A DNA stretch of 64,000 nucleotides. Origin: Bacteroidaceae bacterium. GTDB taxonomy: Bacteria > Bacteroidota > Bacteroidia > Bacteroidales > Bacteroidaceae. The DNA lies in contig JAFSKR010000043.1 in NCBI GenBank assembly GCA_017448825.1, positions 49,416 through 113,415 on the forward strand. The letters run 5' to 3'. Below the pieces are notes generated by a model that saw nothing but the letters and a program-made list of their open reading frames with translations, searched no databases and was not told the origin of the DNA. This document shows positions 45,105 through 52,645 of the stretch, one piece after another (the first letter of the stretch is position 1; every line of letters starts with the position of its first letter). Position numbers and translations under genes: made by a program.

Positions 45105-45166
45105 TGGCAATATATTTACTCAACTAAGTGCTCTTAGTTTGCATTTGATACATTATTATAGTGGTC

Positions 45167-48100
45167 ATGAAACAAATCATACGGAAAATGTCAAGGTTGT
45201 TGCCTTTGTTGGTCATCGCAGGGGCAATGGTGATAGGTTCATGTGGTGAAGTTCACAGAACTAATGATAGTTCCAATTATAAAGTAGCTATCTTCCATTC
45301 GTGGGATAGTGTAGGTGAAGAGAAGGGGCATTTCTCAGAATGTGTGGCCAAGGCCTTTGAAGCACGTGGCATGAAGGTGGAAATCCATCATATTTATGCT
45401 AACATGTCGCGTCGGCCTGGTTCAGTGTTCTCTGAATATGATTGGCCGCGTTATGCGGACTCTCTCCGTCGCTGGAGGCCCGACTTGATTCTTCTGAATG
45501 ATGACCCGATTGTTGAGTGGGTGCTGACGGCTGGGGAGGGTGACTCCATCTTTATGAAAACGCCGACCGTTTTTGCGGGTGTCAGTGCGTTGCTACGCGA
45601 TTCGCTGTACAAGTTTCCACGGATGACAGGTTTTGAAGACCGTATTGATTTGGGGAAGAATATAGAGTTGATGATGAAGATTACCAAGTGTCAGAATGTG
45701 GTGGTGGAGCTGGATTATGACAGTTTGGACATGCGGTTGTATAGGACATTTGAAGTGATGTTGGCAGATTCTACCCGATTCGTCAACAATGGCGATTTCA
45801 TCTTGGAGAGATTGGATGAAGCTTATTTGAGGGAACACTATCCAGGCAGGGCGGTCGTGAATTTCGTGTCGTGTGCTCAACCTTATATGAATCGAGGATG
45901 GTATGATTCTGACTCGGTGGGTAAAGTCAATACACGGAACTTGTTGCGCAGAGCCAAGGATATGTGGCACTTGCAGGTGAAGTATGACATCTTCAGCAAC
46001 AACATGATTATTCTCTCTGGTGTGCCTCAGTTCACCAGCATCCGTGAGATGTTCAATGACCCACGCAATCCGTTGTTCTTGTGTGGTTATTTCACGGGAA
46101 CGGACATTCAGGTGGAAGACCAAGTGGAGTATGCCGCCCGTATCTTGAGGGGAGAAGACCCGAAGTCTTTACCTATCAGTGTTCATGCTAACGACTATTA
46201 CATGGATTGGCGTGCTGTGGAGAAGATGCCTTTCCCGATACCATACGAGGCGTATAGAGACCAGTTCAAAATCTTGAATGCTCCGTTCTATTTGGAGCAT
46301 CCTATTTTGTTCAGTTTGCGTTTGGGCATCGGACTGATAGTGATAGCCATATTGGTATATTTTGTGGTTCGTTTCTTGTCACGTTGGAGAAGAAAAGAAC
46401 AGCAGAGTTTGGTGGAAGAATTGAAGTATGAGGAGAAGATTCACGACTTGATGTTCTCTAACGCTCGCGACACGTTGTGGCATTTCCATGATGGTGGCTT
46501 TACCTTCAGTGAGGAATTCGCCAAGTTCTTTGGCTTGAAGTCGAATCGCATGAGTGTGATGGAACTGAGAAAAGCTGTGCATCCTGACAGTTTGCCTTCA
46601 TTTAACTTCTTGATGAACTTCCCGCACCAGCGTGGCAAGAAGACTGTGCGTCTGCGCCTTTCGCCTGACGACGGAGAGCACTGGTATTGGGCTGAGGTGA
46701 TGTACACAGCAACGGATGATACCGCCCTGTCGCAAGATTTGTATGGTCTTTTGATGAACATAGACCAGAAGAAGGAAACAGAGGAGAAACTGGACGAGGC
46801 GCGCATCATGTCGGAACAGGTGGCATTGAAGGAGAACTTTTTGGCAAACATCAGTCACGACCTCCGCACACCGCTGGGTGCCGTGACGGGCTTCTCGTCG
46901 TTGCTGACAATGCCAGGCATGGTGTTCGAGCCGGGCGAGCGTGAACAATATGGTGAAATTATTCATCAGAATACCGATATGATACTGAAGATGATAGACA
47001 GCGTGGTGGAGAAGACACAGACGGATACCAGCGACCTTGAAGTGGTGCAGAAGCCTGTGTCTGTACACAAACTCATCAACGAGTGCTACAACACCAACCG
47101 CATTATTGCGCCGACCCATCTGAAGTTTATTTTGGAGATGGCAGAGCCAGACACTACATTAAATATTGATATCACCCGTACGAAGCAGGTGGTGAACAAC
47201 TTCTTGAGCAATGCGTTCAAGTTCACGACGGAAGGTAGCGTAACGCTTGGATGGAAGTATATGGAAGACGATGCCGACAAGATAGAAGTGTATGTGAAAG
47301 ATACTGGTATTGGTGTGGCTCCAGAGAAGCAGGCCATGCTGTTTGAACGTTACAAGAAGGTGAACGAAACTGACCGTGGCACAGGATTGGGCTTGAACAT
47401 CAGTAAGAACATTATTGAGAAGCAGGGCGGTCAGATTGGTGTGGAGAGCACCTTGGGTCAAGGCAGTAAGTTCTTCTTCCGTCTTGCCAAGTATGTGCAG
47501 TGTCTGTTGCTCATGCTTTCAATGGGATTGGGACTTCTTCTTCCCTCTTCCTGTACGCCTGAATACCGTAAGCCCAGTCGAGTTGCCAAGGTGTTGGTCA
47601 TTCACAGTTACCGTCGTGAAAACGCCGTCTATCGTGAGTTTGACGATGATATCTATCAGGAGTTCCGTAAGCAAGGCATTCATGCGGACATCAAGACGAT
47701 GTTCCTCAACAAGGAGAACCCGTTGCAGGACACTTCTGAAGACTGCATTGCCTTCCAAGATTCGATGGCAAAGATAGGTTGGGCACCAGAAGTGGTGCTG
47801 ACAGAGGGAGACCGTGCCGCCCACGACCTGCTCGAATGGCGTGAAAAGGGATTGGCTCCGCTGTTGGACTCAATACCTATTATATTAGGTGCGCTCCATC
47901 ATCCTGAGTGGACGGTGATTAGACGCTACCAAAACATCGTCATGATTGGCGACCCCATCGACTACCGCACCAACATCAATCTGGCGGTCGAGATGTCTGG
48001 CAAGAATTGCGTGGAGATTGAATTGGATTACTTCCTGCAGGACTCCCTCATCCGTGAGGAACTGCGGAAAGAGATTGCACGTCCACCCTATATTGACAAC

Positions 48101-49792
48101 TCAGACTTCCACATCAAAGATATACGTGACGAGATGTTCTCGACCATCTGGAAGGATAGTGTGGTGGTGTTGACCTTCTCGGCTGAATCCCCAGAAAGAA
48201 ATTCGCAAAATCCGTTTGAACGTAGTGATGGCTACCGCAATTTGAAGACGATTTTTGTACATTCATGGTTATATCCCTCTCTTGCGGTGAAGAAAGACCT
48301 CTACAGCTCTGCCATCGTAGATAAGACAGGCAAGCCTCAGTTCACGGCTGTGAAGGCTGGTTTTGCTGACGGAATGGGACGCTACCTCTGTGGTTACTTC
48401 GCTGACTATCATACCGTAGCCATTGACCTTGCTCGTGTGGCAACCGAATTGATGAATGGTGCCGACATGGCTTCATTTGTAGGAATGACCCATGAGAAGA
48501 AGTACTACATGGATTATCAGGCGATGGAGGCTTTGGGTTTAGATTACGATGACTACAAGAAGCGTTTCATCATTTTGGGTGCGCCCTTGGAGCAGACGAT
48601 GCCTATTGTGGTGTATGGTACATGGATTGTCATTGCGCTCGTGTTTATTGGTGCTATCTTCTCTGTCCTTTTGATTGTGCAGGCTTGGCGTGACAGAAAC
48701 CAGCAAGTGTTGTTGGACGATGTGAAGCGTCGTGCCGAGATGCGCCAATTGGCATTGAATGGTGCTGATAGTTATCCTGTGCGTTCAGAAGAACGAGTGA
48801 AGGACATCATCTCGCGCATCCATCCTGACCATGCGAGCGAGATTCCATTGATGATGCAAGCCATCAACATTGAAGGCACACATAGCTATGATGTATATGC
48901 GGATGCTGAATCCGATGGCACTTATCGTTGGTGGCAACTCCGCTTTGTGGTAGTGTTTGACAAGAACAGGAACAAGCGAGTGGATGGTATTCTCATCAAC
49001 ATCGACGAGGCTAAGCGTTATGAGGCTGATTTGGAGAAGGCAATGATGCAGGCAGAGGAAGCCAGAAAGAAGGAAAACTTCTTGACAACTGTCAGTCACG
49101 AAATTCGTACCCCATTGAATGCGGTGGTTGGTTTCTGCGACGTGATGGTCGGTATGCCTGCTGAATCGTTCTCTGACGAGGAATTGGCTGAATATGCTAA
49201 GATTATCAAGGCCAACAACGGTACGTTGACCACGATGATAGAGGACATCCTGATGTTTTCACGCATTGAAAGTGGCCGCATTCAGTATGTGAGTGACGAG
49301 TTCAACCCTGCCGACTTGATTCAAGAGTTGGCGAACGAATGGGAAGACATCATTCCAGAAGGCATCACCTTCCATCTGATAGCTCCACAGCGGGGAGTCA
49401 CCATCAACAACGACCGCGTCCGCGTGAAGTATCTGCTCAACCAATTCTTGAGCAATGCCGTGAAGTTCACGAAAGAGGGCATCATCATGTTTGGTATGTG
49501 TTATCATCTGAACGATGACAAGTTAGAGTTCTTCGTGAGCGACTCTGGATGTGGCATTCCGAAGGACGAACAAGATAAAGTGTTCGACCTATTCTGGAAG
49601 GCTAACGAGTTCATGCCAGGTTTAGGTCTTGGGCTCCATGTGGCACAGAAGATGGCAAAGGGCATGAATCTCCAGTTCGTTGTAGATAGCAAGGTCGGCA
49701 TAGGTTCCAAGTTCTCGCTCTTGCTTGATGCATCCATCCGAAGAGTGGATGCTCCCGAACAACCCTCAGCACCTCCAGCACCCTCACTGTAG
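45167..49792 (+). CDS. Tandem double receptor histidine kinase (two complete sensors in one chain)
   Basis: The 1541-residue protein is two homologous receptor kinases fused in frame. Unit 1: lipoprotein-type signal (VIGSCG, Cys25), ABC-binding-protein-like sensor (about 32-370), TM (about 378-402), PAS-like region (about 420-540), HisKA with His564 in NISHDLRTP, then HATPase with N box NNFLSNAFKFT, DTGIGV and GTGLGL. Unit 2: hydrophobic segment (about 776-795, MLSMGLGLLLPSSC), sensor (about 800-1140), TM (about 1147-1172), PAS-like region, HisKA with His1311 in TVSHEIRTP, then HATPase with NQFLSNAVKFT, DSGCGI and GLGLGLHV. The two sensors share PQFT, LCGYF and YYMD motifs, showing duplication. 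No receiver domain is present. The ATG at 45167 follows a promoter; a symporter starts 8 nt after the stop. Confidence 0.88.
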   Translation: MKQIIRKMSRLLPLLVIAGAMVIGSCGEVHRTNDSSNYKVAIFHSWDSVGEEKGHFSECVAKAFEARGMKVEIHHIYANMSRRPGSVFSEYDWPRYADSLRRWRPDLILLNDDPIVEWVLTAGEGDSIFMKTPTVFAGVSALLRDSLYKFPRMTGFEDRIDLGKNIELMMKITKCQNVVVELDYDSLDMRLYRTFEVMLADSTRFVNNGDFILERLDEAYLREHYPGRAVVNFVSCAQPYMNRGWYDSDSVGKVNTRNLLRRAKDMWHLQVKYDIFSNNMIILSGVPQFTSIREMFNDPRNPLFLCGYFTGTDIQVEDQVEYAARILRGEDPKSLPISVHANDYYMDWRAVEKMPFPIPYEAYRDQFKILNAPFYLEHPILFSLRLGIGLIVIAILVYFVVRFLSRWRRKEQQSLVEELKYEEKIHDLMFSNARDTLWHFHDGGFTFSEEFAKFFGLKSNRMSVMELRKAVHPDSLPSFNFLMNFPHQRGKKTVRLRLSPDDGEHWYWAEVMYTATDDTALSQDLYGLLMNIDQKKETEEKLDEARIMSEQVALKENFLANISHDLRTPLGAVTGFSSLLTMPGMVFEPGEREQYGEIIHQNTDMILKMIDSVVEKTQTDTSDLEVVQKPVSVHKLINECYNTNRIIAPTHLKFILEMAEPDTTLNIDITRTKQVVNNFLSNAFKFTTEGSVTLGWKYMEDDADKIEVYVKDTGIGVAPEKQAMLFERYKKVNETDRGTGLGLNISKNIIEKQGGQIGVESTLGQGSKFFFRLAKYVQCLLLMLSMGLGLLLPSSCTPEYRKPSRVAKVLVIHSYRRENAVYREFDDDIYQEFRKQGIHADIKTMFLNKENPLQDTSEDCIAFQDSMAKIGWAPEVVLTEGDRAAHDLLEWREKGLAPLLDSIPIILGALHHPEWTVIRRYQNIVMIGDPIDYRTNINLAVEMSGKNCVEIELDYFLQDSLIREELRKEIARPPYIDNSDFHIKDIRDEMFSTIWKDSVVVLTFSAESPERNSQNPFERSDGYRNLKTIFVHSWLYPSLAVKKDLYSSAIVDKTGKPQFTAVKAGFADGMGRYLCGYFADYHTVAIDLARVATELMNGADMASFVGMTHEKKYYMDYQAMEALGLDYDDYKKRFIILGAPLEQTMPIVVYGTWIVIALVFIGAIFSVLLIVQAWRDRNQQVLLDDVKRRAEMRQLALNGADSYPVRSEERVKDIISRIHPDHASEIPLMMQAINIEGTHSYDVYADAESDGTYRWWQLRFVVVFDKNRNKRVDGILINIDEAKRYEADLEKAMMQAEEARKKENFLTTVSHEIRTPLNAVVGFCDVMVGMPAESFSDEELAEYAKIIKANNGTLTTMIEDILMFSRIESGRIQYVSDEFNPADLIQELANEWEDIIPEGITFHLIAPQRGVTINNDRVRVKYLLNQFLSNAVKFTKEGIIMFGMCYHLNDDKLEFFVSDSGCGIPKDEQDKVFDLFWKANEFMPGLGLGLHVAQKMAKGMNLQFVVDSKVGIGSKFSLLLDASIRRVDAPEQPSAPPAPSL

Positions 49793-49799
49793 AAGCCGG

Positions 49800-51239
49800 A
49801 TGCTTGTTCTTTTGACCATCATATTATATTTTAGTGTGTTGCTGCTCGTCTCCCACATCGTTGGAAGAAAGGGCGGCAACGACGCTTTTTTCAGGGGAAA
49901 CCGTCAGTCGCCGTGGATGCTTGTGGCATTCGGAATGGTGGGTGCCAGCATATCGGGAGTCACCTTCATTGGGGTACCTGGATGGACGATGACCACCGAC
50001 ATGACCTACTTGCAGATGTGCATGGGTTTCATTGTGGGGTATCTGGTGGTGGCGTTCCTCTTGCTTCCGCTTTACTACCGTTATGGGTTGACTTCCATTT
50101 ACACCTACCTTGACCATCGTCTCGGTCGAACAAGTTACAAGACAGGTGCATCCTTCTTCATCTTGAGCAAGTTGTTAGGGGCTGCTGCCAAGTTTTATGT
50201 GGTGTGCAAGGTCTTGCAGGTATGCTTGGCTGACACGATTTCCGTTCCCTACGTGGTCATCGTCATCGTAGCCCTCTTGCTGATATGGATATACACACGA
50301 CGAGGTGGCATCCGCACCCTTGTGTGGACAGATGCCTTACAGACCCTTTGCCTTGTGCTTGCCCTCGTGCTGCTTCTGTTTCAGACAGCTTCGCTGCTTG
50401 GTATGAACCTCTCGGAGGCGATGACGGTTGCTTTCCACGATTCCCATGCCCGTGTGTTCGATTTTTTCGACTTTACCTCTCGACAGAACTTCTGGAAACA
50501 GTTTCTCTCAGGCATCTTTGTCGTTATCGTCATGACGGGGCTTGACCAAGACATGATGCAGAAGAACCTCACCTGCAAGGACTTACGTTCAGCGCAGAAG
50601 GATATGTGCTCTTATGGCGTCCTCTTCCTGCCCGTCAATTTTCTCTTCCTCTCCTTGGGTGTTTTGCTCATAATGCTTTATCGGCAGCAAGGCATGGTGC
50701 TTCCGCTGCAAGGCGACAGCCTGCTGACCAACGTGGTGCTCAATGGCACGATGGGAACCCTCTGCCTCGTCTGCTTCACCATTGGTGTGATTGCCAGTGC
50801 TTTCTCCTCTGCCGATTCAGCCATGACTGCCCTCACCACCAGCTTCTGCATCGATATTCTGGGTAGCGAGCACGATGAGCGCACACGCAAGTTCGTCCAT
50901 TTGGGAGTCTTGGTTGCTTTCGTTCTGGTCACATTGGCATTCTATGCGATAGGTTCGGGCAGCGTGATGGATTTGATATACACGTTGGTTTCCTACACGT
51001 ATGGCCCCCTCTTGGGACTTTTTGCCTTTGGTATGTTTACGACGCTCCAGCCGCGTGCCGCATGGGTGCCCTGCATCGCTGTTGCTTCGCCACTTGTTTG
51101 TTACGCCATCGATATCCTCTTCTTCCGACTGACGGGTTACAAGTTTGGCTACGAGATGCTTATGTTTAATGGCTTGCTCACTTTCTGCGGACTTTGGGCG
51201 GCATCTTCCTTCCACCCCCTTTCTTCCTCAGCCTCATGA
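49800..51239 (+). CDS. Sodium:solute symporter (SSS/SLC5 family)
   Basis: This 479-residue Na+-coupled uptake protein has about thirteen TM helices. It begins MLVLLTIILYFSVLLLVSHI, followed by FFRGNRQSPWMLVAFGMVGASISGVTFIG (split here by the family's unwound helix 1). Next come GLTSIYTYLDHRLG, the FFxLSKxxGAA region and QDMMQKNLTC, a strong SSS motif, with the Na+-site region GVIASAFSSADSAMTALTTSF. It starts 7 nt after the kinase stop and its last codons overlap the DNA methyltransferase start (ATGA), so the three genes are translationally linked. The solute is unknown; the kinase sensors may detect the same or a related solute (inference). Confidence 0.9.
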   Translation: MLVLLTIILYFSVLLLVSHIVGRKGGNDAFFRGNRQSPWMLVAFGMVGASISGVTFIGVPGWTMTTDMTYLQMCMGFIVGYLVVAFLLLPLYYRYGLTSIYTYLDHRLGRTSYKTGASFFILSKLLGAAAKFYVVCKVLQVCLADTISVPYVVIVIVALLLIWIYTRRGGIRTLVWTDALQTLCLVLALVLLLFQTASLLGMNLSEAMTVAFHDSHARVFDFFDFTSRQNFWKQFLSGIFVVIVMTGLDQDMMQKNLTCKDLRSAQKDMCSYGVLFLPVNFLFLSLGVLLIMLYRQQGMVLPLQGDSLLTNVVLNGTMGTLCLVCFTIGVIASAFSSADSAMTALTTSFCIDILGSEHDERTRKFVHLGVLVAFVLVTLAFYAIGSGSVMDLIYTLVSYTYGPLLGLFAFGMFTTLQPRAAWVPCIAVASPLVCYAIDILFFRLTGYKFGYEMLMFNGLLTFCGLWAASSFHPLSSSAS

Positions 51240-52645
51240 GATTCGTTGATTTATTTGCAGGTTTGGGAGGTTTCCACCTCGCGCTCTCCCGTTTAGGACA
51301 TGAGTGTGTCTTTGCATCCGAGATTAAGCCGAAGTTGCAGAAGCTCTACCGCATCAACTTCCCCGATGTGTCCATTCATGGCGACATCACCAAGATAGCA
51401 GCAACCGACATTCCCCCTCACGACATTCTGTGTGCAGGTTTCCCCTGTCAGCCCTTCTCTTTTTCAGGCAAGAAGCAAGGGTTCGATGACGAGTTGGGGC
51501 GTGGCAACCTTTTTGACGAGATTTGTCGTGTCTTGCAGCACCATCATCCTCCTTACATCTTCCTTGAGAACGTCTCGGCCCTGCCTGGACATGATGGTGG
51601 TCGCACATGGGCAGTCATTCAGCAGAAGCTCGATGCCCTTGGCTATGATTTCGATGGCCGTGTCTTCTCACCTCATGAGTTTGGCATTCCTCAGCATCGC
51701 CCTCGTTTCTACATCGTTGGCATCCTACGTTCCGAGGATAACCCTCATCCTCTGCGTAAGTTCCATTTCCCTCAGCCAGACGAAAAAATCGTCAGTGATG
51801 TGCGCACCATTGCCGACCCTACCGACAACGATGGTGTTCAGCCCGTTCGCCGTGCGCTTCATCCTGTCTTCGATGCTTGGCAGGAGTTTGTCTATAACGT
51901 CACCCAACGCGATGGCTATATGCCCTCCCATTGCATCTTTACGATGGAGTTTGGGGCTGACTATGAGTTTGAGGACACCCCTCCAGCCTTCCAACCTATC
52001 GAACGGCTGCGTGGTCATCGGGGTGCCTACGGCAAGGTGCTCGAAGGTGACACGATGGAGGAACTCATCGCCGACCTGCCTTTCTATATGCAGCGAACCA
52101 AGTACGAAGAGACCTATCCCGAGTTCAAGAAGGTGCTCATTCGTCAGAATCGTGACCTCTATCAACGGCACCGCGATTGGATAGATCCTTGGATGAAGAA
52201 ACTCATGCCTTATCCGCGCACCCAACGTATGCTGGAATGGAGCACAAACCAAGATTGGGACTTTCGTCACCATGTCATCCAGCTGCGTCCCTCTGGCATT
52301 CGCATCCGCTCCCTCAACTACATCCCCACCATCACGCTGTGTACCACTGCCACGCCCATCCTCCCATGGATGCCGTTCCCTCCTGGTGGTGCCGTCGACA
52401 AGAAAGGACGCCCCTATGAACCCGAAGATTTCCGTTGGGGACGCTACATCTCTCACAACGAGGCTGCTCGTATCCAGTCGATGCAGGAACTCAACTACAA
52501 CGGCCTCTCACGTGTGCAGAAAATCAAGGCACTTGGCAATGCCGTCAACGTTGATGTGGTCGAGATGATAGCTCGTCGTCTCCTTCAGGTGAAATGGGGT
52601 TCTTCCAATGGGATGGGATTATCCGCGAATGGGATTATCAACTGA
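51236..52645 (+). CDS. Orphan DNA cytosine-5 methyltransferase
   Basis: This C5-methylcytosine DNA methyltransferase (469 residues) shows all key motifs in order: motif I FVDLFAGLGGFHLAL, motif IV AGFPCQPFSFSGKK with the catalytic Cys, motif VI FLENVS, and motif VIII QHRPRFYIVG. A long target-recognition region (about 190-390) follows, then motif X with ALGNAVNVDVV. The start overlaps the symporter stop (ATGA) and is supported by motif I lying 5 residues in. No restriction endonuclease gene is adjacent: the next gene is a convergent DUF5715 gene. The last 20 codons run into short repeats rich in AATGGG, so the C terminus may have been extended or eroded. The recognition sequence is not predictable. 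Confidence 0.93.
   Translation: MRFVDLFAGLGGFHLALSRLGHECVFASEIKPKLQKLYRINFPDVSIHGDITKIAATDIPPHDILCAGFPCQPFSFSGKKQGFDDELGRGNLFDEICRVLQHHHPPYIFLENVSALPGHDGGRTWAVIQQKLDALGYDFDGRVFSPHEFGIPQHRPRFYIVGILRSEDNPHPLRKFHFPQPDEKIVSDVRTIADPTDNDGVQPVRRALHPVFDAWQEFVYNVTQRDGYMPSHCIFTMEFGADYEFEDTPPAFQPIERLRGHRGAYGKVLEGDTMEELIADLPFYMQRTKYEETYPEFKKVLIRQNRDLYQRHRDWIDPWMKKLMPYPRTQRMLEWSTNQDWDFRHHVIQLRPSGIRIRSLNYIPTITLCTTATPILPWMPFPPGGAVDKKGRPYEPEDFRWGRYISHNEAARIQSMQELNYNGLSRVQKIKALGNAVNVDVVEMIARRLLQVKWGSSNGMGLSANGIIN

Follow-up and report, generated by a model that had tools for sequence, protein, structure and literature searches.

Canonical histidine kinases are homodimers. Proteins with two transmitter modules in one polypeptide are very rare: one survey counts 2 among 15,704 non-hybrid and 51 among 4,650 hybrid kinases (PMC3018481), and 96.2% of the two-transmitter kinases surveyed also had receivers (PMC3018481, PMC4603909). 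DhkD of Dictyostelium is likewise a receptor with a pair of histidine kinase domains, but it is eukaryotic, spans the membrane once and carries two receivers (PMC3783435). Heterodimers have been described for kinases that are separate proteins. FasB and FasC of group A Streptococcus are two sensor-kinase proteins that are encoded at one locus, have six predicted transmembrane segments each and heterodimerize, with FasC proposed to be a pseudokinase (PMC12675982); ChrS/HrrS (PMC9491836) and RetS/GacS (cited in PMC9491836 and PMC12675982) heterodimerize as well but also homodimerize.

Here we describe a gene in the window, the 64,000-nucleotide stretch of Bacteroidaceae DNA that was analyzed, whose product shares with the two-transmitter kinases the presence of two transmitter modules per polypeptide. 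Unlike most of those surveyed (PMC3018481, PMC4603909), it contains no receiver, and each of its transmitters has its own periplasmic sensor and transmembrane segment. With FasB/FasC it would have in common that co-encoded sensor kinases heterodimerize, which we predict from sequence, but here the two form one chain, have periplasmic sensors and both look intact as kinases. The earlier note knew of no described kinase of this architecture, a statement that was too strong in view of the two-transmitter proteins already counted (PMC3018481) and of DhkD (PMC3783435). A search of open-licence PubMed Central papers found none on a fused, two-sensor, lipoprotein-type kinase pair.

Architecture of the double kinase

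The open frame is uninterrupted on the plus strand from 45161 to 49792. Residues are counted here from the GTG codon at 45161; numbers counted from the Met start at 45167 are 2 lower, C796, H564 and H1311 of that numbering being C798, H566 and H1313. From Met, the gene (45167..49792, plus strand, as are all features below) encodes 1541 amino acids. We searched 45 genomes of the genus of the window (g1) with a match threshold of E ≤ 1e-60, and the fused gene is likewise a single open frame in the 35 carriers. Pfam places two HisKA and two HATPase_c stretches in this frame, making it a HisKA-type, two-transmitter kinase, and gives neither a Response_reg nor an HTH match on it, so it is not a hybrid kinase or HTCS. 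When residues 1-776 were aligned with residues 777-1543, the halves were 27% identical over 756 columns (E 5e-78). The Pfam pairs and this alignment bear out the proposal in the earlier note that two sensor-TM-HisKA-HATPase modules lie in one polypeptide, and the paired motifs given there (HSW/HSY, VVVELDY/VEIELDY, PQFT, LCGYF and YYMD) are all found in the translation. Among the 19 HisKA matches in the window's own genome (85.9% complete), this is the sole open frame with two.

Each half has a lipobox-type signal, a sensor, a membrane segment, a PAS-like region, a HisKA and a HATPase. Unit 1 begins with a hydrophobic, lipoprotein-type signal whose last residue, Cys28, is invariant in the 35 carriers (45167..45244). 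It continues with periplasmic sensor 1 (45254..46294), a transmembrane segment assigned by hydropathy (46301..46372), a putative PAS-like region judged solely by alignment with unit 2, HisKA 1 (46829..47008; 53.1 bits) with the phospho-acceptor His566 (codon 46856-46858), and HATPase_c 1 (47168..47485; Pfam). What was once the signal peptide of unit 2 follows at 47492..47554 as an internal membrane segment that takes the chain back to the periplasm and ends in Ser797-Cys798 (Cys codon 47552-47554). It leads into periplasmic sensor 2 (47564..48592), placed by alignment with sensor 1, a second transmembrane segment assigned by hydropathy (48599..48664), a PAS-like region (48788..48982; PF08447 at 24.6 bits, under the cut-off of 25.6), HisKA 2 (49070..49276; 63 bits) with His1313 (codon 49097-49099), and HATPase_c 2 (49403..49729), the second Pfam HATPase_c stretch, with limits taken from the half-versus-half alignment. 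Four hydrophobic segments were located, at about residues 10-28, 378-404, 776-797 and 1145-1165, and because of these the topology works, as had been claimed.

The sensors themselves are at best distantly related to ABC_sub_bind. PF04392 was matched by 4 of 54 family sensors (best E 1.4e-4), and sensor 1 of the window gave no PF04392 match. A profile built from these 54 of the 130 sensors located gave two matches among solved structures, both at E > 0.1 and thus not significant. The sensors may be called faintly ABC_sub_bind-like.

Separate type 1 and type 2 genes in related genera

In a sample of the family, 58 of 399 genomes had a match, with two candidates scored per genome; the kinases were matched in 13/37 genomes of genus g24, 5/17 of g21 and 4/6 of g2. 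In these three genera each of the two kinases has a gene of its own, and the genes adjoin, type 1 followed by type 2, an order common to all four genera studied, in which co-encoded, non-identical partners have been kept together. Two pairs stand in a row in five g21 genomes and in two of the four g2 genomes. Spacing was read at 23 type 1-type 2 junctions: in 8 of them the ATG of the second gene and the stop of the first overlap by 4 bases, and the remaining 15 have other spacings. At six such junctions (L047-L052) the two genes share a reading frame, and the single stop codon between them is separated from the second ATG by three bases. With two candidates scored per genome, no two-unit match at E ≤ 1e-60 was found in 393 genomes sampled at the level of the order and 394 at that of the phylum.

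In a tree of the units, unit 1s and unit 2s separated into two clades, with SH-aLRT values of 99 and 98, respectively, and the order within one clade broadly matches that within the other. It held 100 of 134 units, comprising two units each from 19 of the 35 fused members and the units of the other genera minus two partial ones, and was made with a quick method; the branches flagged as long include those of L054_F2 with L056_S2 and of L047_F1 with the g21 first units. The two clades indicate that the duplication is older than the fusion, and a recent duplication was ruled out by this tree, within the limits of the quick method. The sequence of events would so have been duplication, inheritance as a pair, and then fusion in g1. 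Separate fusions arose in g2, where they occur in two genomes (L047, 1372 aa; L054, 1503 aa); their nearest relatives in the tree are split genes. The origin put forward in the earlier note, a tandem duplication after which the first stop codon was lost, holds for the stop, which was lost in g1 and, separately, in two relatives, but the duplication predates the four genera studied.

Loss of catalytic residues in paired kinases

Both phospho-acceptor histidines and both N-box asparagines are present in all 35 fused g1 members, and the G1 and G2 boxes, like the N box of unit 1, are conserved in the 34 members aligned. The histidine is also kept in both units of the 13 g24 pairs examined. By hand tally, the histidine or the ATPase domain is missing from one or both units in 17 of the 18 g2 and g21 pairs examined, and in 13 of these 17 the partner retains its boxes (again by hand). 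Residues seen in place of the lost histidine are Ser, Arg, Tyr, Phe, Thr, Lys, Asn and Gln; L055 is the only pair with both histidines kept. The 18 pairs are those of L047 (2), L053 (2), L054, L055, L056 and L073, and two each from L048-L051 and L057; the single g2 matches G096:C25, G145:C185 and G130:C141 lie outside the tally. The first unit of L053 runs off its locus, its ATPase loss being read from a match of query residues 22-621 in a 608-aa frame, and the state of the first unit of L057, from g21, was taken from the genome match search. The overall pattern of loss in g2 and g21 is that expected of co-dependent partners. In the second pair of the g21 arrays (L048-L051 and L057), both members lack the histidine in 4 of 5 cases, which does not fit simple complementation. 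These histidine-less second pairs still hold several ATP-binding boxes.

We consider it roughly an even chance (a probability of about 0.5) that an obligate heterodimer of two sensor kinases has here been turned into a single chain. According to this proposal, ancient paralogous lipoprotein sensor kinases, one of type 1 and one of type 2, would have formed an obligate heterodimer and become one polypeptide in g1. Unit 1 would supply one sensor in the periplasm, its transmembrane segment, its PAS-like region and one kinase core, while what was the signal peptide of unit 2 would cross the membrane again and put sensor 2 in the periplasm, with Cys798 probably still lipidated. In a chain that would stay whole, the two cores would pair through their DHp regions as a fixed one-to-one heterodimer, which would integrate the ligand inputs of both sensors and phosphorylate a stand-alone receiver encoded elsewhere, a presumed partner. 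Among the three outcomes offered in the earlier note, such an intramolecular pair is the best supported because relatives have degraded partner kinases, and the precursor cut at an internal lipobox is a possible one. Two features of the junction count against the single chain. Only about 3 residues lie between the end of HATPase 1 and the membrane segment, which is hard to reconcile with standard kinase geometry, and the invariance of Ser-Cys might be a sign of cleavage.

The internal cysteine

That second feature leads to a different arrangement, a signaling polyprotein in which Cys798 is lipidated and lipoprotein signal peptidase cuts the chain into two anchored kinases at a one-to-one ratio, which then heterodimerize as in the sister genera. 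A bacterial polyprotein with an internal export signal has a precedent in the FbcH cytochrome b/c1 precursor, which is cut at an internal signal peptide; FbcH is not a kinase and is handled by another signal peptidase. A search for "internal lipobox" among open-licence PubMed Central papers found none. The lipoprotein-like stretch ending at this cysteine had been recognized in the earlier note, and the comparison upholds it, with a hydrophobic stretch followed by a Cys that is invariant in 35/35. In g1, no Cys column other than those of Cys28 and Cys798 is invariant, and Ser797 is invariant in all 35 members although most residues near Cys798 vary. K or R occurs at residues 776-778 in 32 of the 35. 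All 60 units scored in g2, g21 and g24, two fused junctions included, have a Cys after a hydrophobic stretch near the start, and the L047 and L054 fusions both retain a lipobox-like Cys at the junction. Separate translation of unit 2 does not account for the invariant Cys798. The junction lacks a start codon conserved among the 35 members; the best candidate, a GTG at residue 779, occurs in 17/35, GTG being the commonest Val codon in these genes, and 7/35 have no ATG, GTG or TTG at 776-783. Separate internal translation of unit 2 was ruled out on these grounds.

Whereas the invariant Ser797 and Cys798, together with the lipobox-like Cys elsewhere, support lipidation, the surrounding sequence is less typical of a cleavage site. 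The −3 position at g1 junctions is Pro in 19 of the 34 scored and Leu in 1, as against Leu in 33/60 and Pro in 1/60 of the other units and Pro in 0/13 of the other lipoprotein-like neighbors. A lipobox consensus pattern fits 15/34 junctions compared with 31/34 N-termini and 48/60 other units; this scoring missed the L032 junction and the L028 N-terminus, in both of which C798 and C28 are present. Another cysteine in the same segment, Cys781, is itself nearly invariant (31/34). Finally, about three residues separate HATPase 1 from the former signal peptide of unit 2, and residues 760-788 are without an indel in all 35 members. This indel-free linker favors a segment that remains attached, and its constant length would be unexpected if the tail were removed. 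With the atypical −3 position, cleavage into two lipoproteins is no more than possible: the idea of a precursor cut at an internal lipobox draws strength from the invariant Cys and loses it at −3. We put a polyprotein whose internal lipobox was kept genus-wide and in two independent fusions, the main rival of the single chain, at somewhat below even odds, a serious possibility that we hold tentatively.

Gene neighborhood and a candidate receiver

An SSF sodium:solute symporter gene (PF00474) lies directly 3′ of the kinase at 49800..51239 on the plus strand, its start being set from the translation. A C5 cytosine DNA methylase is encoded downstream of it (window 51194-52645). MatE upstream and the SSF symporter and C5 DNA methylase downstream were found in 5 of the 6 g1 loci with compared flanks, and all three neighbors are absent from the sixth, L066 (G025).

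At the g24 locus L058, two genes come after the kinase pair, one for a protein whose TPR matches are sub-threshold and one for a small protein that matches nothing in Pfam; the opposite strand carries two stand-alone receivers and an AraC-type gene. Six more g24 loci (L052 and L059-L063) have flanks long enough to compare, and the receiver genes are present in all of them. In 13/13 kinase-positive g24 genomes, a homologue of the first receiver is encoded within 2 kb of a kinase gene of the pair; of the 22 kinase-negative g24 genomes searched, 9 also contain a homologue at E ≤ 1e-24, mostly a weaker match. In g1, a homologue 49-60% identical is present in 35/35 kinase-positive and 4/10 kinase-negative genomes (Fisher p 2.6e-5), a co-occurrence that is confounded because the MAGs are incomplete. 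This search covered g1 and 35 of the 37 g24 genomes (the other two are kinase-negative) but none from g21 or g2. Receiver and kinase are on different contigs in every g1 genome listed. At the seven g1 loci examined, the receiver adjoins a TackOD1-type gene or lies one gene away from it (Pfam having been run on one), and two of the seven come from kinase-negative genomes. These loci (L067:4996-6962, L068-L072 and L074) place a receiver near a protein with TackOD1, thaumarchaeal output domain 1, which is a possible non-DNA-binding output. By association, the stand-alone receiver is a candidate phospho-partner of the kinase; its different contig in g1, its place near TackOD1 genes and its presence in kinase-negative genomes of g1 and g24 speak against this role.

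Two receivers beside one pair could also mean that each chain holds two independent kinases, a two-input, two-output receptor in which each unit homodimerizes with the like unit of another chain and no cores pair as heterodimers. The homodimeric nature of canonical kinases is in keeping with this, as are the catalytic residues kept in both units of the fused members and the histidines of the 13 g24 pairs. The recurrent loss of a histidine or ATPase domain from one partner in g2 and g21 is against it. So is the persistence of the pair even without sensors: L073:2395-4745 (G096) encodes a type 1/type 2 core pair, assigned by best match, that has no periplasmic sensors, and its second kinase has Thr in place of His. 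The existence of this pair indicates that pairing is independent of the sensors; the stand-alone receiver and an AraC-type gene adjoin it. We therefore regard two independent kinases per chain as doubtful.

Conservation of the fusion within genus g1

The double kinase was found in 35 of the 45 g1 genomes, the window's own counted, at 45-100% identity. The single open frame was seen in 34 carriers in one survey and in the 35th, G013, in a separate check. G025 was first flagged with a stop, yet a 1530-aa frame spans both of its units. Ten genomes gave no match; eight of them are less than 90% complete, but G023 (99%) and G024 (93%) are not. Four database records also match, two from uncultured Bacteroidales, one from Prevotellaceae and one from Bacteroidaceae. 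One is titled sheep colon, and RUG labels stand for rumen. The protein in these four records is already that of four of the 35 carriers, so the records add no further cases.

The earlier note asked whether independent sequence data would reveal a stop at the junction; across species, none was found in any of the 35 carriers. An assembly or strain artefact in which a lost stop or a frameshift joins two real genes is ruled out by these open junctions at 45-100% identity, even though the source assembly has 75 contigs and is 86% complete and the sister genera carry two genes. The fused double kinase is real.

Implications

One gene of the gut bacteria of g1 encodes two complete sensor kinases end to end that are separate neighbors in related genera, and this suggests that the product is a natural single-chain heterodimer. 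Obligate kinase heterodimers have rarely been documented. A single-chain pair that comes with split orthologues and half-degraded relatives would be a clean system in which to see how two sensors drive one kinase core, and it could reveal the use of internal lipoboxes for bacterial polyproteins.
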